Below are positions 19,201 to 30,960 of a DNA stretch of 64,000 nucleotides, in pieces. Source of the DNA: Isoetes taiwanensis (Eukaryota; Streptophyta; Lycopodiopsida; Isoetales; Isoetaceae). The position numbers and the translations under genes were made by a program. Location: contig JAJEKV010000003.1 in assembly GCA_021234155.1 (NCBI GenBank), forward strand, positions 28,999,166-29,063,165. The letters run 5' to 3'. Within the stretch, counting starts at the first letter, position 1. Every line of letters begins with the position of its first letter. Below the pieces are notes generated by a model that was not told the DNA's origin, searched no databases, and saw only the letters and a program-made list of their open reading frames with translations.

Positions 19201-19452
19201 CTACTCTCTACTGAGAAGAGTATCTTTTTCACTATTGTCAATGTTCTCAAGGAGCTCTCTAATGAATTTTGCCACTTGGCACATTGTAGAGTATTTTTGG
19301 AAAAGAGTTGCCAAGTTCTCATGGTCCCAATCCACTTGGGAGTACTTTTCCCGAAGTGAATGGAACCGAGGGCAATGAAATATTACATGTGCTTCTGTTT
19401 CAATATCCTGCTTGCATCTGCATGTCCTTTCTTCCCTATCTCCCTGTTTCAA
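19201..19452 (-). CDS. LINE B C-terminal zinc finger, frameshifted from the polymerase
   Basis: The frame encodes RTCRCKQDIETEAHVIFHCP, a C-x-C...H...C finger typical of LINE polymerase C-termini, then a short charged tail. It overlaps the end of the 620-aa frame by 17 bases in another phase. The polymerase frame stops right after HHLMIETGR, so a single frameshift near 19440 separates the two. Confidence 0.75.
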   Translation of the reverse strand: MKQGDREERTCRCKQDIETEAHVIFHCPRFHSLREKYSQVDWDHENLATLFQKYSTMCQVAKFIRELLENIDNSEKDTLLSRE

Positions 19453-21298
19453 TCATAAGATGATGTGAACCCATGCGTATTCGGGCTATTGCTTGTACAA
19501 TTCCCGGGTACATGTTCTTATGACTAAGATATAACTGAATGTCATGTTTTGCTTCTGGATTAAAGTCTTCCAAATAGTATCTGACCTTTTTCTTATCACA
19601 GAATCCAATGTACCGCTCAAATGCTTTTTGTTTAAAATTTTCCCCAAAATCTGCCATCGTAAGATGTAATCGGTTCAACCATCGTGTTACATCTTTATGC
19701 CAGCTTGCTTTTCCCCTCCCTCCCAAGGCCGTGGAGGCCTGGATTTCCACACATGCCAAAGATGTTCCCTCTACTCTTTTATTCAAGTATCGGGCAGTTT
19801 GCCAAGCTGCTTGGATCTCCAATGGGTATGATCCACTTTCCATTAACAGAATCTCATACGGCACTGATCTTTTCACTTTAAAAACCATATGTAATAATGT
19901 TTTTTGTATTTGCTCCAACGCATTCCACTTCCCTTTTGGCAAGGACGGACCCCATAATTCACAAGCATACAAAGCAACTGGCATGACTAATGTGTCAAAT
20001 AAGCGTTTCCATATTGGCCAAGACCACACATTTGCTTGCCTGCCCTGATTAAGCATCGCATAGAATGCTTTCAATGCAGCTGAAATCCTGCTATCAACTC
20101 CTTGGGTCCAGCTTCTCCTGCCTGCATACACTTCATGCCCAAGGTATTTGTAAAAATTAACCTGTTCTACTCTCTCTCTTTGATATATAACATTAGCCTC
20201 AATTTTACCAAAGCATACAAGCTTAGTCTTATCCAAATTTACAGTAAGGTCAAACCTGTTGCAAAAATCAGCAAGCGCATCCAACTGTCCTTGCATATCC
20301 TCCTGAGAATATGCTGAGAGCAGCAGATCATCGGCAAAAAGCAGTAGCACCACTAGCTCCTTCTGTATCCGTGGGAATTTGCAACCTTTTGTTTGGAGAA
20401 AGCTTTCAAGCTGATCCACATATAGACCAAATAGAGTAGGTGACATTGGGCAGCCTTGCTTCACCCCTATATCACTAGGTATTGCCCCTGTCATACCCAT
20501 TGGAGTGGCCACTTTTCCTTGCACATTTTGGTAGAGTCTTCCCACTACAATGATCCATTCTTTGGGCACCCCCAACTGTGTTAATCTGTCTATTAATTTT
20601 TGCCGCGGAACCGTATCGAAGGCCTTTGCAAAATCAATAAAGCAACAAATCAAAACTTTGTTCCTAGACTTAGCTTCCTCCACTATCGTACGAAGTGTGA
20701 TCAAATGATCAAGAGTTCCATACCCGGCCCGGAAACCTGCTTGCCCCTTTGCTCTAATACCATTTTCATTTGCCCATTTTGTCAGCTTAAGATCAAAAAC
20801 TTTACCAAATAGTTTAACCAGAATTAGACTTATCATGATTGTGCGATAATTTCCAGGATCCGCTACGTCTGGCTGGATAATGCTCATGCTCCACTCTGTT
20901 GGGAACCCTTCCCAAATTACTTGGTTAAAAAGTAATGCTATTACTTCTGTCAAAATTGGCCCCCCTGCCTTCAGGTGTTCTGCTCTCAAGCCTGTAATAT
21001 CGCATGCTTTGCCACATGCTAACAATCGAATTCCTTCCTCAACATCACTAGCATCTACACAAAAGTGTGCGGATGTGCATTCTGGTATCTGCAGTTTATC
21101 AATGCCTTTAAAATAGAGATGAAGCGCATATGCATACCATGTATCTAAATCTGTGAGAGAGATCTCTTGTACAATGGGTGACAGCTTCTTCCAAAATCTC
21201 TTTGTATCCAATTCCATTAGCATCTTATCTTGCTGTGCATGTTCCCAGCTTTTTTTCTTGTCTCGGACCATTTTGCGATACTTTTTCAAACCTAACAC
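19436..21298 (-). CDS. LINE B reverse transcriptase, about 620 aa, uninterrupted
   Basis: This is a long open frame of an L1-type LINE polymerase, which makes cDNA at a nicked genomic target. Visible reverse-transcriptase blocks are FIDFAKAFDTVPRQKL (box A), GVKQGCPMSPTLFGLY (box B), LLFADDLLLSA (catalytic box), VNLDKTKLVCFG and FYKYLGHEVYAG. They are followed by the C-terminal RMGSHHLMIETGR. The listed start is a GTG only because an in-frame TAA lies just upstream, at the junction with the TTAA element. The frame is in phase with the endonuclease half at 29835-30296 once the element is removed. The absence of internal stops suggests the LINE was fairly young when interrupted. Confidence 0.88.
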   Translation of the reverse strand: MLGLKKYRKMVRDKKKSWEHAQQDKMLMELDTKRFWKKLSPIVQEISLTDLDTWYAYALHLYFKGIDKLQIPECTSAHFCVDASDVEEGIRLLACGKACDITGLRAEHLKAGGPILTEVIALLFNQVIWEGFPTEWSMSIIQPDVADPGNYRTIMISLILVKLFGKVFDLKLTKWANENGIRAKGQAGFRAGYGTLDHLITLRTIVEEAKSRNKVLICCFIDFAKAFDTVPRQKLIDRLTQLGVPKEWIIVVGRLYQNVQGKVATPMGMTGAIPSDIGVKQGCPMSPTLFGLYVDQLESFLQTKGCKFPRIQKELVVLLLFADDLLLSAYSQEDMQGQLDALADFCNRFDLTVNLDKTKLVCFGKIEANVIYQRERVEQVNFYKYLGHEVYAGRRSWTQGVDSRISAALKAFYAMLNQGRQANVWSWPIWKRLFDTLVMPVALYACELWGPSLPKGKWNALEQIQKTLLHMVFKVKRSVPYEILLMESGSYPLEIQAAWQTARYLNKRVEGTSLACVEIQASTALGGRGKASWHKDVTRWLNRLHLTMADFGENFKQKAFERYIGFCDKKKVRYYLEDFNPEAKHDIQLYLSHKNMYPGIVQAIARIRMGSHHLMIETGR

Positions 21299-21307
21299 GA
21301 TTGCAAA

Positions 21308-21311
21308 TTAA
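21308..21311. repeat. TTAA target-site duplication, left copy
   Basis: TTAA directly precedes the element end ACGGGAG. The matching copy is at 29835-29838. Confidence 0.8.
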
Positions 21312-21351
21312 ACGGGAGTGTTGCATCACTCCCGTTTCAAAGATTCCCTTT
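21312..21351. repeat. Left terminal inverted repeat of the 8.5-kb element
   Basis: ACGGGAG at the tip forms a local hairpin with CACTCCCGT (21328-21336). CAAAGATTCCCTTT follows at 21338-21351. Confidence 0.75.
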
Positions 21352-21645
21352 AAAAAAACACCAAGTTTCTAAAATAAGCCTTTTTTGATAGTTGTTAAGA
21401 ATTTCTAGAGGTTTGCATTTTTTTTCATGCCATTTTGGCCCATTATTAGACGAAAACTTTGTACTTATGAAACACAAATCATAAAAATAGCAAAATTTAG
21501 GCATATACTTGAAGAGACTGAAAGCATTACAAAAAACAAGCACCAGAATAGAAAGGAAAAAAAAGTACTATGTTTTTAATAAATTGTTGTACATCAATAT
21601 TGAAGATTCATTGTAATAAATAATGATAATTTTAATATGCAGTAG

Positions 21646-22770
21646 TCAAAGATCTACATCATAGTCCTCCTCATTCTTTTTGCTGCTCTCTGCCATCTCG
21701 TCCTTCTGTTCTATCTGCTCCTTTGCTGGAGACTTGAGTTTTGTATCCTCCTTGTTCTCTGGAATGGTAGCTAAAGCTACTTCTTTAAGCTCTGCAAAGG
21801 TTGCCTCATCGTCTAGTGAGCTGGAGAATGGAGGCTGTATCTCTGAGGACGTTAGTTTAGCATAATCAGATGAAGACTTGGCCCCTAACTCCTGATTTTC
21901 ATCTGGTAAAGTAGGTAAGGCAGCCAGTCTCATCTTCACAAAATGCACAGCCTCCTTATCAATATCCACGGCTACACAGTTGCGGCCCTTCTTAAGTGCA
22001 CATGCGATAGTAGTACCAGAACCAGAGAAAGCATCAAGTACCCAATCTCCTGGACGCGAGAACATGTCCAGGAGATGGTTGATGAGCTTTTGTGGTTTCT
22101 GGTAGTGATTCACAATCCTGCCTTGTGCACTTGGGTCCCGCAATTTCGAAGACCGCTGGAAACTCTAGGACGTTTGAAAAGTTTTGACAAAGCAAGCAAA
22201 GTGTTAAAGTGATCCATGGTCCTCTTCCCATCAAAACTCCAATAAGCTACATGAAGGTACTCTACCTTGCTGAGCAACCTTGGTCCTCCACCATGGTAGT
22301 TGATGTTCGTTTTGTACCTAGTGAAGCATTTAAAGTGATGTTAGCAAAAACAAGAAAACACTTCAAAACCGTAAACAGAAATACTATTCCTAATACACAC
22401 TCACGTAATTAAAGAGAAAAGTAATTGTATTCGGAATAAGACTTACCGCATAAAGGTTTTCATATCCCCGCCTGAACCGAGAACCAAAGTGATTTTGAAA
22501 GCTGATTCCACCAAGCCGCATCGCATGCTCGAAAGTGGAACGTAACTAAACGCCAATGTTTGGCCGTTGAGATCTGCTTGATTCCTTCAATGAAAGCATT
22601 AAACTCTGAAAATTTGAAGGGCTGGTCGTCAGATTCTGCCGCCTTTAAGCTTAAACCCATAGGGAAGATCAGCAATAACCAAAGTAAAGTCCTCGTGGGC
22701 TTAACCGTTCGAAAGGTTCGTGCAATCACCATGAATGATTGAATATAAATTGTTTTGATCAAACATGCAA
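21646..22770 (-). pseudogene. Beta-class DNA amino-methyltransferase domain (C-terminal half of the ParB-methyltransferase gene)
   Basis: Read on the minus strand, the pieces follow the order of beta-class N6-adenine/N4-cytosine methyltransferases. A GDC-like block is followed by VIADLPYGFKLK (motif IV, DLPY form of DPPY, 22656-22670). A middle region follows (FSEFNAFIEGIKQI, then LLSKVEYLHVAYWSFDGKR), then NHYQKPQKLINHLL, then WVLDAFSGSGTTI (motif I, 22006-22029) and VAVDIDKEAV. Such enzymes transfer methyl from S-adenosylmethionine to an exocyclic amino group of A or C. One intron is supported (donor GTAAGT near 22442, acceptor CACTAG near 22322). Frameshifts are needed near 22645, 22510 and 22145, and probably upstream near 22740. 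A Lys/Glu-rich tail ends the protein. It continues the ParB-like gene at 22940-25489. Confidence 0.75.
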
Positions 22771-22939
22771 TCTCTCAGAGTCGGATGGTTCGCTCAACAG
22801 CTTCTTCTTTCAAATTAACGACCTCTCTTCCCGTGCTGTTCTAACCAAATTCATAAAGCCCTCGGGTAGGTCTTTATTTTTCTTTTTGCTCTAAAGAAAA
22901 ACAAAACAACAACTGTCAAGAGATCATTTGTGCAGAGAG

Positions 22940-25489
22940 AAGGAATTCTAAGTGTAATTACCCAGCCCCTCAAAATTTGGTGAATATTGGACAATGCGCC
23001 GTCCGGATGTGGCAATTGGGTAGAGTTCCTTGCACCTTTCCCATGTGTCGACGCTTAGTCGCTCCATCAAACATGTTTGACATGTTATGACGTTTTTTTG
23101 GCTGCAAGACGTTAAGGAAACAATGAGTTTAAACGAAAGAATGAAGGCAACGTAAAAGAAAAACAAATACAAGTCAAGCTATTTGTATTCTGGAATACAA
23201 ACCGGTTAACTTGTGATGCTACCTCGAAACAATATGCAGAAAATAGTTCTACTACAGAATGTTAGCTTCTCTAAAGGAACGCATGCGTATTCCATAATAC
23301 ACAGCCAACATTCGGGAGGAGCAATGTGTATTCGAATACACATGCCTTCCTTCACGGGCAATGTGTATTCCGAATACACAATGCCTTTCTAGAGACAAAG
23401 CAATGTGTATTCCTAATACACATTGCCCGTAAAGGAAGGCATGTGTATTCGAATACACTAGCTACCGATGTTTTTGGGAATCTAACATGCAATAACTAAT
23501 GTTTGTGTCGAGAACTTACTTGTGTAATTCCTTTGACATTTCTTCTAGGCTAAACTCCTTATCAACAACTTTTTGGAGAAGTCGCCGAGAAGCTCCGCGT
23601 CGAGAAGCCCCGCATTTCCGGCCGACGGTAATGGTCATTTCTTTTTGGTACGCCCGAGCTTTTTTCTTAGCTGTCTCCTTTCCCTTGCTCTTTAACTCCC
23701 CTCGCCAACATTGTAAATATCCGGTCCCGAGTTCCCAAATCTGTTCAAGAAGATTCACGTTAAATAGTTGATTTGCTATTCTGGAATACATTTTGTGCTT
23801 ACCTTGCCATCTCTAAAAGCTAACTGGAACCAGTTGTCGTGGCCAATGAGAGACTGCCTTTTGTTGGCCTCGCATATATTTCAGCAAAGATTCAATGGCA
23901 CACGCCTCCTTAAGCTCCAAGGAAAATGCTGGCTTCTTCAGGTCCTCACCGTACTTTTCCTTGAATATTACGTACTCCCTGTGCATGAACCGGATCTTGT
24001 CGACGAAGCTCATCTTTAGTTTATATTCGTTGTCAGCATTGTGGGTGTTGGCAACGATTTTCGCTTCTTCATCGGTAAGACCACAGTAGACAGCGCAGAG
24101 GACGGAGAGGTACCTCGGGTTCTTCTTCTCTTTATAAAGTTGCCTTCTTGCCTTAAAGCTGTGATTGCCTCCCAAGACGTAGTGAGTGTAGGTCTCTGCG
24201 TTTTCTCTGTCATAGTCTTGGGGGGTTTTGCACTCTTCCCTGTCAACAAGGACAACTATTGGGGCCACATGAGCATTTGGATTGCTCCTTATTCTGTCTT
24301 TCAGGTTCCTTAAGTGATCGGCATAAATTTTGCGAACCTGAAGTGGCCTTTCACCAGCTTCATTTTTCGGTGGAAGCTTCATTGAAGTGACTGGCAAGTA
24401 AATTACACCTTGCACAAACTTGTGCAGGTTAATCTCTTCCATCTTTTCAGCTGTCTTGTCAACTTTTTTTTCCTTAATTGCAACACCAGGTGCTTTACCC
24501 TTCCCCTTCTTCTTCTTAGGTTCCTCGGAAATATCCTCTGCTGCAATTAAGGCTGTCTGCTTTTTTTTAGGCTCTTTAGCAGCAACTGTTTGCCTTGGCC
24601 GCTTCTTTGGTGGTGGTGACGGTGGCCTTTCGCCGGACTGTGATGGACTCCCAGATTGTGATGAGGAACTGCTCGGGCTCGGTTGCTCATCCTCTTCCCC
24701 TTGTGATGACTCGCTGTAGGGGAAGTCTTCGCTCGTTGTGCTTCGAACATAGTTGGGTAAAAGCATGTTAGGGTGTCCCTTAAAAAGTATTATTTAGTGA
24801 CTAAAAAGGTACCTAAAAAGGTAGCCAGGACTGGGTACTGGGTACCTGTATAATATCTCAATATAAGGTATGTTTTAGAACTTTTTATATATATATTGGT
24901 CTCCGATCGCATTATCTTTATCTTAACTTTGAATATTACCACGTCCTTGACTTTTATTTTGGATTTTTGTATTAGTTTTAATGAAAAGAAAAATGAGAAA
25001 GTACCCAGTTCTGAAGTACCTAGTGTATGTACTTTTGCAGGTTCCAAAAGTGGTACACCCTAACATGCTTTTACCCAGTTGATGATGGCACAGAGCGACC
25101 TCTTGCTGAGGTAGTGAGAAACATACTTGTATAGAGGATGAGGATTTACTTTCACCACTCTAAAATAGGATTCATCAACATGTATAAAGCCTTGGGATGT
25201 CTGAAAAGACAGTCTCCCTCGCTGGCCGGACTCCCCAGCTACTTCACTCACGGACTGGATGGTGCCCATGCAAACAAATTCCCTCTCATCGTACCTTTTT
25301 GCTCCAGCACTCCGACAGACATGTAGGAAAGTAAGTGTGCTGTACATTCCAGAAGTACCCCTTGTAAAAAACCATTGCGTTTGAAAGTTTTCGTAGATGG
25401 CAGGCGCAGATGTCTCCTCAACCCTTCTCTGTGGGTGCGGTTTCGTTGGGATTTTAACGGTCCTCTTCTGTTGTTTCTTGCTGCCTTCT
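22940..25489 (-). pseudogene. ParB-like domain protein (N-terminal half of the ParB-methyltransferase gene), disrupted by a MITE
   Basis: The first visible exon starts after an acceptor TTTGCACAG (about 25490) and encodes SKKQQKRTVKIPTKPH and then a folded-looking region I do not recognise. After the nested MITE is removed it runs in frame into a low-complexity Ser/Pro and Lys-rich linker with KKRPRQ-type nuclear signals (about 24720-24440). The ParB/Srx-like domain follows: VIYLPVTSMKL, IYADHLRNLKDRI, HVAPIVVLVDRE and the signature THYVLGGNHSFKARRQL (24141-24180), then DEEAKIVANTHNADNE. Later exons are 23522-23742 (WELGTGYLQCW..., donor GTAAGT) and about 22980-23095 (TCQTCLMERLSVDTWE). A frameshift near 23860 breaks the frame before GHDNWFQLAFRDGK. 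ParB-type domains bind or cleave nucleotides or DNA, and fusions to amino-methyltransferases are known in bacteria and phages. The 5' exons upstream of 25490 are not identified. Confidence 0.72.
24755..25076. mobile_element. MITE (322 bp) with 4-bp duplication, nested in the ParB-like exon
   Basis: The ends are GGGTAAAAGCATGTTAGGGTG and its inverted copy. AGTT flanks both ends (24751-24754 and 25077-25080). Excising the element with one AGTT joins the host frame precisely (CAIIN to YVRSTTSEDF). A relative with GTCA duplication is at 43474-43734. A 4-bp duplication of variable sequence is unusual for plant MITEs. Confidence 0.88.
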
Positions 25490-25519
25490 TGTCTGTGCAA
25501 ATTGTGTGTAAACACGATC

Positions 25520-26265
25520 TTGTTAGAGAAAGCAGTGGCAAAAAACTATTCCAGAATACAAAATGTCTTGCGAAAAGGAAAAAACAAGGGCAAAAAGAGG
25601 ACAAAAATGCCAAAACAACACTGCAATCTTGACAAAAAAATAGGTCTAAACAAGTTTTAAAAGCAGAAAAAACACCTAAAGTCACTACAAAAATCACGGA
25701 AAAACAACCTTACAAAACATAAGAACACGAATGTGTATTCCGGAATACACTTTCGCCTTTGAGGGAAGGCGAAAGTGTATTCCGGAATACACTTTCGCTC
25801 CGGCTCCAAGGCATTAAAGTGTATTCCGAATACACTTAACCCTTTTCTCGAAGGCTAAAAGTGTATTCCTAATAAGAAAACGTATTACACAAAAATGATT
25901 GTACCTTTGTACTTTCTTACTCACCTCTCCATGTTTTCTATGAGTATCGAATACAAACTCTGAATATTATATTCGGTATACCGGGCGTCATGGCGACTTC
26001 AAAATCGAGACCGAAATACGAACCGGCGCCAAAATTTCCTTTTAAAGGTGTCCATTCCGCCTTGCTCGCTTTCTATGTGAAGTGGAATACGCTTTGGCCT
26101 TACTGCTCTACTCTCTAGTGTATTCGGGAATAGCTTTTAGTTTGCCTTTTCGCTTAATTGTTGCGGGAAGTTCTACTTGTAGTAGGCGGGCTTGTATTCG
26201 AATAAGAAAAGCTCTGCAAAGAGAGAAACATTATCTAAACTCTACAATCGCTTTTGCGCTCGTAA
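25520..26265. promoter_or_regulatory. Central divergent intergenic region of the 8.5-kb element
   Basis: It lies between the 5' ends of the two divergent genes and holds about seven of the palindromes. One is a 30-bp perfect palindrome at 25769-25798, joined to its neighbour by a second hairpin (CACTTTCGCCTT...AAGGCGAAAGTG). 5' exons and promoters of both genes should lie here. No clear TATA box was assigned. Confidence 0.5.
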
Positions 26266-26269
26266 GATG

Positions 26270-29200
26270 ACAAACCGCCAACAAACTTCCACCACCTTTC
26301 GTTGTCTCAAGCTCGCCTGTTCTGGAGGACACGCTTTGGGACCAACGCCGCTTTTCTTCAAGACCGGCATTTCTCCAACTCCTACCTCGCTTCATCGTTC
26401 TTGCTTCTCGAAGACACACCGAAGTCCAAAGACGCAATGTACTTCCACCACCCTTCCAACCGCCACCAAGTCCTCGTGAGACAAAGACACCGCATCTCCT
26501 TCCAAAGAATCACCACTTGTTCGAGCGGGCTGCCACCACCCCTTGTTCCATCCCCCCGGACCTCGCAAGCTCCACAACAAAGGGTGCTCAAGAACAAGCT
26601 ACCCCCCCTTTTGTAGTTTCGCCTCCCTTCGGCAAACATACAAGGAACACGTAAAACACGTAAGACCGTGAGATTCACTACAATTTCTCTCACCAGGACT
26701 TCACTACAAATGAGGACGAAGCTCCAAAGATGCACTCCTCTTCACACAACAACGGTTGACACATGGATTTGCGAATCCCACCGCTCTAAAGGAGATGTTT
26801 GCAAGAACTCCTTTTCAAGATGGTACAAGAACAGCTGATGCCACAACCTCTTATGGGCCATCACCACCCTTTAACATTGTACCCCCGCCTATTCCGGGAA
26901 CAACTTCACGTGGTCTGTTTTCCTCTACAAGCACACCACTCGGACAGGAAAGTCACCCCAGAGTAGAAGTTTCATCGGAAGATGAAGACACCAACGAGGA
27001 ACAAAGAGATTACATGTTCTCAAGCCAATCTTCAAAGAAATTCAAGGTGGATTTTGGTTTGAGGGCTTGCTCCTCTGCAAGAAGAAGAAATCTTATGGAT
27101 GAACAGAAAATGAGGAGACTTTTGAGAACTAAATGCTGCTCATTGGGTTGCATCAACAGATTTAACATGGCTAAATTACGAAAGCGCTAGAGACAACTAC
27201 AATTCCATGATATTGGCAGCACCGAATGCCTACTTAGCTTATCATGTAAGACCAGACCGCAACACCTTCTTGCACTACATTAACCGGCCAAGAAGTTTGC
27301 CGAAATGTTTTATGGTTGTCCACCGCTTTAGGGTCCACAAGAATGTCTAGAATACACAAAAGATCGGACAAAAATCCAAAGAATCGATGATCATTGTGGA
27401 CCAAGAAGAGTTGTAACCATGCATGCCCTTGCTTCCGTGTCATGGATGGATGAAATATTTTAGAGAAACATGTGAGAAGCTACCTAACAAAGAACATGTA
27501 TCATTTAACCGATAACATCACCAAAAAGATGTTTTAATGAGTACAAAGAGACTTGCACTCAGCTTCAAAGACATCTCTTACTCACACTTCACCGTGACCG
27601 TGGAAAAGTGAATTCGGTCTTGTGAAAATTCCTAGAAAACATAGAATGTCCTGCTTGCTCGAGGTGTGCGTAATTAAAGAGTCAACGAAAACCGCAAAAG
27701 ACAGAGGTCGAAAAGAAGTAAGTTCATGTTCTCCAATCTCTCACTTGTTTCGAGAAAATGCTTTGACCTGATTTCTTCTACGATATTGTGCAACGTAACC
27801 TTGCCGACATCGCGTGAACAACAAGCAAAGCAGAGAGAAGAAAAGCTTGCCAAGCATAGAAAAAAGCTCTTGAACGCCCACCGCAATACATGTCTCATTG
27901 TGATTGATGGAATGGACAAAAACAACTCTACCACATTTCTTGAACATTCCTAAAGATGTGCCGTGAGGAATGTTTTGTTAAGGTCCACCTTGTAGGAGCT
28001 ATGGTCTTCAAAGGAAGTCTAAGGTGCAAAGTTTTTTGACGATCCAAACTTGCATGGTGACCCGAACCTCACAATTACAATTCTTAACAAGGTCCCGTGG
28101 CGAGCAAGAGCAATTACCACCCGTTGCTTTATCCGAACTTGACAATACTACAAGGGAGAACAAGAATCAAACACTCTTTATGCGTCGTCGTGCCATGTTA
28201 GTGGAGCTAGGGATCTTTAGAAAAGTGAAGCTCTGTTTTCTTACTTGTAGGCCACACTCATGATCGATTGACCAAATGTTCAAAGAGATTTTCTCAGGCG
28301 CTTTAGAAGGAAGAAGGCTTTTCTGCCTTCCTTCTTTAGTTCAATTATTGAAGATTCTTACACTCCTACTCCAAAGGGTCGATCTTCTTAAAGAGACCGC
28401 TGATTTCGTGAGAGTTTGTTTTCTCTCAACGCTCAAACAGAGAACAAGCCGCGGAACAAGTTGAATGATCTCACCTTTCAACATCATATCAAGTTCTACT
28501 TGAAGGATGGCCAAAGCTTCTTCTGTGGGAAGAAGTATACCACAACTAAGGACTGGAGTCCGCCAGAGGGATTACGCTTCCTTAAATATATTCCGACACT
28601 TCCTTCATAGAACGTCTTGAGCAACTTCCTCTCAAAAATCCTAAGGAGTCCAAGCGTAAGAAAAGTACCCCAGAAATCATCCTTAAAAGCCATTGAAAAT
28701 GGAATTTCCTCAGGCTTTAAGTACTTCTTAGAAGAAGATCGGATGTGGTGGAGTAATTTCTTTCTAACGTAAAATTGTTGTACAAAATATAGCTCTAAGA
28801 CAGGTTGCAAGAACCATTTCAATGGCCTAACACCTTCCATCAACCCCAAAGACTAAGCAGTCCAAGCAAAGGCTACATTTGCACCTGCAGAAGAAGACGA
28901 GGAGGAGGACCGAGTCATGTACCTCGGACCAAGACGCAGAATGAGCCCCAAGGTAATATCACGTAAATTACCAAAGGTATGCTAATTGCTCTTCCGACCG
29001 AGGAGGATGACAAAGGTCGACCGCTCTGATAGCAAAAGTGCTTGACACACCAAAGGAGGAAGGCTTAGTCACTAAACTCAAGATTCATTGGCTTGCAACA
29101 CGCCGTAAAAATGCTTTTGAAGGTAGATATGAGTTAGAAATGAGAAGCCAAGGAAAAGGGAGAAAGTCCAAGAAGGTGGGTTGTAGGGACGAAGCTGAAC

Positions 29201-29487
29201 CTTAATGACGGACTATATTGTGCTATGATTTTAAATTGAAATCGACAATCGCCTCACGCCGAAGACTATCAATTTGCTTAAAAAAAGCTTGTAATTATGA
29301 AGAAGATGATGAAGAAGGTGGTGACAATGCTTCACCGTCTGTTGATAGTGATGAGGAAGATAACTCAAGCACTTCCTCGAAAGACAATGAAAGAAGTGAA
29401 GGTGATGACGATGGCATAAATGAACATGAGGACGCCCCGATCCCTCTCTCATCACTCCTCACACTTTTGCACATAACCGAGTCTTAG
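26270..29487 (+). pseudogene. DUF7869-type protein gene, candidate transposase of the 8.5-kb element, degraded
   Basis: Plus-strand pieces follow the family order. A Pro/Ser-rich start (26270-26640) and an acidic region lead into a Cys block (LRTKCCSLGC, about 27137). Then come QREEKLAKHRKKLL and LIVIDGMDKNNSTTF (27891-27930), LDNTTRENKNQ (28138-28170) with LVELGIFRKVKLCFL, and GHTHD (28249-28264). FSQALRRKKAFL, YTPTPKGR, a block LKDGQSFFCGKKYTTTKDW with GLRFLKYIP (28500-28600) and an acidic C-terminus (29290-29430) complete it. Stops and frameshifts are frequent between blocks. The Asp-containing blocks and GHTHD could form an RNase H-like catalytic triad (inference). The gene ends about 350 bp from the right element end. 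Confidence 0.7.
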
Positions 29488-29778
29488 AAAAAGATCAGAA
29501 TTTTGATGTGAATATGAAGATTCTATCTTCAAATTTTGAGAATACTACAGCTTCAATTACGGACTTACTTCAATTTTTGTTAAATATTTTATCCTCTGAA
29601 ATTAGAGTTTCTCTCTTAAAACATACTTTAAGAACATTCTTTTTGCTAAGAAAAGTGACACTTTAAAAAAGTCAATTCCTTCGTTGCAAAAAAAATTTAG
29701 TCATTTCGGGGGGCAAAATAGAATTTCATGCATCTTTTTTTTTTTTAACCTCATTTTACCCCCTTTTTTGTAAAAAAA

Positions 29779-29834
29779 AAAGGGAATCTTTGCGGAATAT
29801 TCCTTTTGCTCTCGTTTCAATGATTTGCTCCCGT
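29779..29834. repeat. Right terminal inverted repeat of the 8.5-kb element
   Basis: CTCCCGT at the tip, preceded by AAAGGGAATCTTTG at 29779-29792, is the inverted counterpart of the left end. The spacing between the two shared blocks differs (45 versus 26 bases from the tip), because each end has a different insert. Confidence 0.72.
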
Positions 29835-29838
29835 TTAA
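29835..29838. repeat. TTAA target-site duplication, right copy
   Basis: TTAA directly follows the element end CTCCCGT. It matches 21308-21311. Confidence 0.8.
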
Positions 29839-30870
29839 TACGCAACTTTGTTACCTGCTACAGTGTCTGCTTGCTTTCTTGCTTCCTTTAGTTCCTGATC
29901 AAACCAGGCATTCCTAGATTGCTTGCCATGGCCACCTACCGATTTCCCATATACTCTGCTTACACTTGTTACTAACAGATTATTTAGCGCTGCCGCCTTC
30001 GTGTGTACATTAGCAAAGAAAATAACAGAATGGATACCAGCTTCAATCTCACTTTGAAATTGTTCCCTTTTATCAGCCTTATACTGAAGTCTCGGAAGGT
30101 GTTTCCTTATAACCATTTTGGGCTTAGTACCCAATTCAAAATGAATGCAAGCATGATCAGTCTCAGGATGAAAAACATCTATATCAAAGTTCTGGAGCTG
30201 TCCAAAGCATGCCGTACTTCCAATCAAGTAATCTACTACAGAATATGTAAACTGACCTGCATTTTCACCCGATAGGTAAAGCCTGAGGAGTTCCAAGGGC
30301 GAATTCCATTGAAAATGATAAAGTCCAATGATTCGCAGAGATGTAATAAGTGGCGTCCTGCTTCATTAACTTCCCCATGTTCGCTTCTCCTAAGAAAATG
30401 TTCTATTGGCTGTACTACTTCCAGATTATCAGGTGAGCCGTCAACATATTCTGATTTGCCTGCAATCCACCTGTCCAGCAGTTAAAATCTCCAACAAGCA
30501 AAACATTTGAATTGTTCTTCCATCTGGATACAAAAGAACCAAGTCTAAATATTGCTGCCAATTGTTGTTCTTGGTCTACTGGAGGGATGTAACATCCTAC
30601 TACTATCAGATCTTTATCACTTGTTATAGTGGAAGAGGCTATACGGATTGCCACAAAGTTCTTATCTTCTACATCCGCCCACTCCAAGCTAGCAAACTTG
30701 AGAAAACTGTCATGCACATAACAAGCTATGCCCCCGTACGGTCTCCCCCGTGACGGTTTCTTGTTCCAGACTGAAAAAGATTGATAACCCTTGACACTTG
30801 GTATCCTGTGTGTTTCATGTTCCCATGTTTCTACTGCAAAGAAAATGTCCATCTGGCGACTATCTAGCAT
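29835..30870 (-). pseudogene. LINE B endonuclease (APE-type, EEP fold) region
   Basis: The minus-strand frame 30870-30415 encodes MLDSRQMDIFFAVETWE, GIACYVHDSF and NVLLVGDFNCW. The frame 30296-29835 encodes YSVVDYLIGS, HACIHFELG and RNAWFDQELKEARKQ. These are the blocks of an apurinic-type endonuclease (GDFN and the SxxDY(I/L) motif near the end), which nicks target DNA for LINE insertion. The last block is the linker that leads into the reverse transcriptase at 21298. A frameshift separates the two frames near 30300-30415. Confidence 0.85.
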
Positions 30871-30960
30871 GTTAATGTAATGGTTTAATCCTTTTGGACC
30901 TCTAACATTTAGGCATCCAAAGCTAATTGCGGCAGGCCCTAATTGCCTGCCTGGGAATTC

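Follow-up and report, generated by a model that had tools for sequence, protein, structure and literature searches.

Among the described transposons closest to the locus considered here, Ginger elements end in TGT...ACA and piggyBac requires a TTAA duplication. Kolobok elements have 5'-RR...YY-3' termini, KolobokP solo repeats are flanked by 3–5 bp duplications (PMC9587614), and transposons of other kinds have acquired genes for epigenetic enzymes (PMC12730594). The present analysis concerns an insertion of about 8.5–8.6 kb in a stretch of 64,000 nucleotides of Isoetes taiwanensis (assembly GCA_021234155.1, contig JAJEKV010000003.1, positions 28,999,166 to 29,063,165; hereafter the window). 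The insertion carries two divergent genes, one for a DUF7869 protein and one for a DNA amino-methyltransferase with a ParB-like region. It belongs to a numerous family with terminal inverted repeats (TIRs) that seems to encode a DDD transposase not recognised before and a ParB-methyltransferase co-selected in it. The best reading, from a comparison made with Pfam families, is a new cut-and-paste transposon at the superfamily level with a self-marking ParB-methyltransferase.

Taken as a whole, the following proposal is considered quite probable. A DUF7869 enzyme of the DDD type with a BAH-like C-terminal domain would cut at the AACA...TGTT ends and join them to the target with a 4-bp stagger, leaving varied 4-bp duplications. 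The ParB-methyltransferase (D-L/I-P-Y) would most likely bind the palindromes of the element that encodes it (GTGTATTC..GAATACAC, spaced by about 42 bp) and methylate element DNA, which would either counter silencing or control the timing of end use.

Element Borders and Related Copies

The left 113 bp of the element, searched against the genome (1,658,258,908 bases), gave 1203 first-look candidates, of which 40 were scored; all 40, the window's own included, were 100% identical over the 113 bp. The number of such left ends in the 1.66-Gb genome is at least 40. Twenty of these loci were fetched first and four more (L029–L032) were added, making 25 elements with the window copy, each selected for a perfect left end or an open DUF7869 frame. 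A matching right end was present in 19 of the 20 first-fetched loci (L028 has none within its 10 kb), L009 is just 4448 bp long, and for L032 no left end could be located. The sequence-only reading had named further copies with these ends and TTAA on both sides as its check; many were indeed found, with TIRs and 4-bp duplications rather than TTAA.

That reading had also placed the element at 21308–29838. The insertion is real, but each border lies 14 bp further out, giving a corrected extent of 21294–29852 with AACA...TGTT tips and 25-bp TIRs identical at 20 of 25 positions. In all five plus-strand loci (L001, L002, L003, L007 and L008) of the eight that were cut out, AACACGATTGCAAA stands upstream of TTAA, and because this sequence is common to them, 14 bp further out, TTAA/ACGGGAG must be internal to the TIR. 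The inverted ends are present in the window element, and the second shared block inside both ends corresponds to AAAGATTCCC, both as first described. Exact 4-bp duplications flank 17 of the 19 first-fetched two-ended elements as well as the window copy (18/20), the mismatches being L009 (CCCG/ACCC) and L024 (TTCA/TTCG). They also flank three further loci (L029 AATT, L030 AATG, L031 TTAT), for a total of 21 of 23 two-ended elements, window included. The duplicated sequences vary and none of the 21 is TTAA, the flanking duplication first assumed. An 11-mer, TTAAACGGGAG, occurs exactly in the window at the two element ends only; with two mismatches it has 14 window matches, which is not above chance.

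The element interrupts a long interspersed nuclear element (LINE) with a reverse transcriptase (RVT_1, E 9.2e-31). When the halves are rejoined at TTAA the frame is in phase, as had been noted, but it carries an in-frame TAA. Rejoined with a single ACCT, the LINE is stop-free and reads QADTVAGLKKYRKMVRD (...TVAGLKKYRK...), which independently supports the corrected borders. An additional frame break lies in the LINE between 30362 and 30415.

At the left end (21308–21338) a second GAAACGGGAG copy is inverted and makes a hairpin; at the right end (29800–29838) the second copy is direct, GAAACGAGAG. Both persist in altered form among the relatives shown, and the L029 right end is without a second GAAACGGGAG copy.

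The features of the locus, in window coordinates, are as follows.

19436-21289 and 29857-30960, minus strand: LINE halves split by the element (RVT_1)
21290..21293, no strand: left target-site duplication ACCT (exact 4-bp duplications in 21/23 two-ended elements)
21294..21318, plus strand: left TIR AACACGATTGCAAATTAAACGGGAG, includes TTAA/ACGGGAG (start common to copies; TIR identity 20/25)
21319..21348, no strand: subterminal block with AAAGATTCCC and an inverted GAAACGGGAG copy that makes a hairpin with the TIR (retained, with differences, by the relatives shown)
21646..22164, minus strand: methyltransferase C-terminal exon with FSGSGTT (S-adenosylmethionine motif), N6_N4_Mtase (PF01555 E 1.1e-16; PDB matches CcrM, MboIIA, RsrI)
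22580..22780, minus strand, approximate limits: methyltransferase catalytic part, IADLPYG, frame broken here (three-frame translation)
22962..23101, minus strand: predicted exon with C-x2-C motif, VITCQTC...NFEGLG (translation, splice signals)
23102..23519, minus strand: predicted intron 3, GTAAGT...CAG, palindromes at 23184, 23327, 23364 and 23444 (splice signals)
23520..23740, minus strand: predicted exon IWELGTG...KELHK (translation, splice signals)
23802-23741, minus strand: predicted intron (splice signals)
23803..24754, minus strand: putative ParB-like domain exon, YVLGGNHSFKARRQL...NTHNADN, and charged linker, frame change near the 3' end (open reading frame (ORF) 23813-24793; P0083; TIGR03764)
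24755..25076, no strand: nested 322-bp miniature inverted-repeat transposable element (MITE), TIR GGGTAAAAGCATG (also given as GGGTAAAAGCATGTTAGGGTG), flanked by an AGTT duplication (L016 and L017 have the empty site)
25077..25492, minus strand: N-terminal domain exon, TQWF.TRG..G.Y..TFL..., predicted start (ORF list, translation, splice signals)
25493..25924, minus strand: predicted intron 1, GTGAGT...CAG, palindromes GTGTATTCC(G)GAATACAC at 25734, 25776 and 25820 (splice signals)
26714..29477, plus strand, approximate limits: DUF7869 transposase-like pseudogene, predicted DDD core and BAH-like C-terminus (PF25273; fold of relative P0002)
29828..29852, minus strand: right TIR, reverse complement AACAAAGTTGCGTATTAAACGGGAG (copies compared)
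29853..29856, no strand: right target-site duplication ACCT (window copy ends)

The Two Divergent Genes

The DUF7869 gene first proposed is recovered on the plus strand by PF25273 (E 1.7e-19, read-through composite). The predicted structure of its relative P0002 has an RNase H fold in which three aspartates are placed as in DDE transposases, a core resembling Mos1 and integrases, and a BAH-like domain at the C-terminus; the conserved acidic residues are D39, D119 and D161. Judging from this model, the DUF7869 protein is probably the transposase of the element. The listing of fold matches is without most named transposase superfamilies and excludes none of them. The DUF7869 domain was also found in proteins of fern, liverwort, charophyte and mussel origin, and two matches are presumably from sponge, going by their gene-name prefix; no paper on DUF7869 was found in the literature searched.

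The divergent second gene of the sequence-only reading likewise has a DNA amino-methyltransferase domain (N6_N4_Mtase, PF01555 E 1.1e-16). An in-frame D[LI]PYG occurs in 16 of the 25 elements; L030 has both D[LI]PYG and FSGSGTT. The catalytic D[LI]PYG is a variant at the PP position of a (D/N/S)PPY-type motif and precedes FxGxG; by this motif order (D[LI]PYG, then FSGSGTT), the enzyme is assigned to the beta class. The five splice signals, at up to four mismatches, are present in 23, 12, 21, 16 and 22 of 23 elements, some having been lost or become unrecognisable, and short ones may match by chance. If the predicted introns are right, a bacterial-type gene has turned into a spliced eukaryotic gene.

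The claim that a ParB-like domain is joined to the methyltransferase stands for the methyltransferase, and its ParB-like part is backed indirectly by weak but repeated matches. TIGR03764 (ParB) matched all three relatives (E 0.0021, 0.041 and 0.0073), far below the family cut-off, and phrog_723 (ParB-like) matched one of three ParB-part proteins weakly (E 0.4). The only two plasmid matches are both annotated as ParB and are weak as well (E 0.2 and 0.9). An hhalign comparison of five ParB-like sequences with six plasmid sequences, one of them hypothetical and the other five annotated as ParB, gave P 5e-4 and a probability of 31%, against 0.45 for the reversed control; the predicted model of the domain has a predicted local distance difference test score (pLDDT) of 42. 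The ParB-like identity of the upstream exon region is supported by these similarities, not proven.

Among the 20 of 592 phage records listed, the methyltransferase matched generic methyltransferases only, and the ParB part alone had no phage match. In viral contigs none of the four queries (ParB ORF, methyltransferase exon, DUF7869 and P0083) had a confirmed relative, and there was no match in the viral fold library at E 0.001. The methyltransferase composite, compared with protein databases, had no match in one search and one generic match (P0001) in another.

Palindromic Arrays

The palindromes recur in 23 of 23 elements (the complete ones and L032), with 5–17 per element at up to three mismatches and 264 in all. 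The window element has 23 half-sites of seven bases where 0.77 would be expected from the remainder of the window, and 10 palindromes against a mean of 2.1 and a maximum of 6 in 60 Markov control runs; 11 palindromes lie in the other 55,441 bases of the window. Among spacings of up to 60 bp, 76 of 110 are 41–43 bp, and since about 42 bp corresponds to four helical turns, the sites would face the same side of the DNA. Seven of the ten palindromes in the window copy, to which the intron placement refers, lie in predicted introns 1 and 3 and two are intergenic; the match at 27530 looks like chance. The arrays resemble parS or iteron arrays, a likeness on which the self-marking proposal is built, and GTGTATTCCGGAATACAC might, from this analysis, be a candidate site for the ParB-like protein. 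The earlier suggestion that the element marks DNA, either its own or its target, is plausible, and its own DNA is favoured as the methylation target because the arrays lie inside the element.

There is an appreciable chance, somewhat short of even, that the arrays are not ParB sites but a by-product comparable to a satellite, in the form of intron hairpins or a regulatory RNA structure. They form long inverted repeats, they lie mostly in predicted introns in the window copy, and their number varies from 5 to 17 among elements, all of which such an origin would accommodate. Against it, the half-site and the 41–43 bp spacing are also found in L029, whose DNA differs from the window element by 23–33% in aligned stretches.

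Relation to Described Systems

As a cut-and-paste transposon, the element has TIRs, a fixed-length 4-bp duplication and a predicted RNase H fold with three acidic residues. It shares TIRs, a short duplication and a predicted RNase H-fold DDD core with mariner/Mos1 and the other Repbase cut-and-paste transposons, and it differs from them by a transposase in PF25273, a BAH-like domain, AACA...TGTT ends and a varied 4-bp duplication. piggyBac was rejected, none of the 21 exact duplications being the TTAA that it requires. Ginger-type TGT...ACA ends are absent, since the element ends in AACA...TGTT.

It remains unlikely that the element is a divergent lineage of a named superfamily (Kolobok/KolobokP, Ginger, Academ or Sola1) that acquired a methyltransferase gene. 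Capture of epigenetic enzymes has precedents in other transposons (PMC12730594), the AA...TT ends and 4-bp duplications fit the RR...YY termini of Kolobok and the 3–5 bp duplications of KolobokP, and KolobokP also has a second DNA-acting gene (PMC9587614). Unlike Kolobok, the element has no TTAA preference among its 21 exact duplications, a point tempered by the departure of KolobokP itself from TTAA, and the C/DxxH motif between the second D and the last acidic residue is absent from the DUF7869 consensus, the sequence searched (PMC9587614). The only histidines of the consensus in that interval are 155 and 157, and the residues three positions back are L and G154 (G in 53/53). The second gene encodes a methyltransferase and not the His-Me endonuclease of KolobokP, and short TIRs stand in place of long terminal direct repeats (PMC9587614). 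Additionally, the 857-aa DUF7869 frame of L029 is above cut-off for PF25273 alone in a comparison with Pfam families.

The new cut-and-paste transposon proposed here would resemble the fungal TET/JBP transposons (KDZ and others) in carrying a base-altering enzyme, possibly self-protective, and differ from them in adding rather than removing marks, in the ParB-methyltransferase and in its transposase (PMC12730594). With prokaryotic ParB (ICE_PFGI_1 type, TIGR03764) and parS it shares the region of the GGN[TH] motif and palindromic arrays in cis, and with the beta-class CcrM, MboIIA and RsrI a D-x-P-Y motif before FxGxG. Unlike these prokaryotic proteins, the two domains belong to one gene with predicted spliceosomal introns, within a transposon of a eukaryotic genome; no ParA was seen among the parts of the element. 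No prior description of a ParB-methyltransferase transposon was found in a literature search by title and abstract start, with Repbase outside its range, nor is ParB mentioned in the available parts of PMC12730594 or PMC9587614.

Association of the Two Genes and Selection

The pairing of the two genes is supported by other copies: of the 24 fetched elements 22 carry both, as does the window copy, for a total of 23 of 25. These 23 have ParB and the two parts of the methyltransferase on one strand, and DUF7869 with the BAH-like part on the other. The exceptions are L009, without ParB and the middle part, and L028, without DUF7869 and BAH in the stretch examined. Independently, a 401-aa protein of Mytilus (P0083) joins a ParB-like domain to DUF7869; across 81 residues the ParB part of the window copy is 36% identical to its N-terminus (E 2.6e-9 in a set of 98), with an alignment score of 122 against a maximum of 61 among 2000 shuffles.

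Comparison of the window copy with L029 gave, for the ParB domain, a proportion of synonymous differences (pS) of 0.886, which is saturated and allows no ratio, and of nonsynonymous differences (pN) of 0.089 (170 codons), and for the methyltransferase C-terminus a ratio of nonsynonymous to synonymous rates (dN/dS) of 0.165 (115 codons). Two DUF7869 pieces compared between L024 and L029 gave 0.18 and 0.09, and pN exceeded pS in the shifted-frame control. As read from these substitutions, the ParB-methyltransferase has been under purifying selection between related families, and selection seems to have maintained the two genes until recently.

Two observations weigh against the proposal: Pfam ParB families gave no match, and P0083 may be a fused gene model, with no methyltransferase seen in it. 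A ParB-methyltransferase that is a mere passenger, with no role in the life of the element, is improbable. Accessory genes such as the fungal TET/JBP are thought to move passively among transposons (PMC12730594) and the complete first-fetched copies are decayed; the purifying selection, the co-occurrence in 23 of 25 elements, the Mytilus link and the conserved palindromic arrays all speak against it. As for a TTAA-duplicating element at 21308–29838, the TTAA at both inner positions and the LINE frame in phase had spoken for it, and it is ruled out for practical purposes by the 14 bp that other copies share beyond TTAA on both sides, the 4-bp duplications outside them and the in-frame stop that it leaves in the LINE.

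Subfamilies and Decay

The window element is one dead copy of a numerous family of TIR DNA transposons, with stops and frame changes breaking both genes. DUF7869 is interrupted in 18 complete first-fetched copies and the window; in L024 it has one frame change and no stop. C-to-T changes are twofold more frequent at CG (0.041) than elsewhere (0.019), a pattern that old methylated repeats would show. The MITE interrupts the ParB gene of the window copy and is not part of the element proper; a short probe for its empty site had no match in L013, L015 and L021.

Among 19 copies compared, fifteen, the window included, form subfamily A (mutually 89–96% identical), and L010, L011, L020 and L023 form subfamily B, 79–83% identical to A. 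Mean pairwise identity is lowest in the middle (0.74–0.80 at 24594–26693) and highest in the left 300 bp (0.991), partly due to the choice of perfect left ends. Subfamily B shares its ends and outer parts with the window's subfamily and differs strongly in the middle (the N-terminal ParB-methyltransferase part and the intergenic region), which suggests mosaic exchange or a functional split. The copies are 79–96% alike overall yet identical over the left 113 bp, in part through best-hit selection; this points to strong constraint on the ends or to exchange there.

Concluding Remarks

A further step, tentative and well short of an even chance, would be a eukaryotic self-recognition of the ParB–parS kind, in which loading at the palindromes leads to adenine or N4-cytosine methylation read by the BAH-like domain or by host chromatin factors, as the self-marking of a new superfamily. 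If true, the pairing of a ParB-like domain with DUF7869 in a mollusc protein too would make this an old arrangement. DUF7869 would gain a proposed function, that of a DDD transposase with a BAH-like reader, and to the transposons of plants would be added one that encodes an amino-methyltransferase of bacterial type and also carries candidate target sites for it. The disputed role of amino-methylation in eukaryotes would thereby become testable on a defined substrate.
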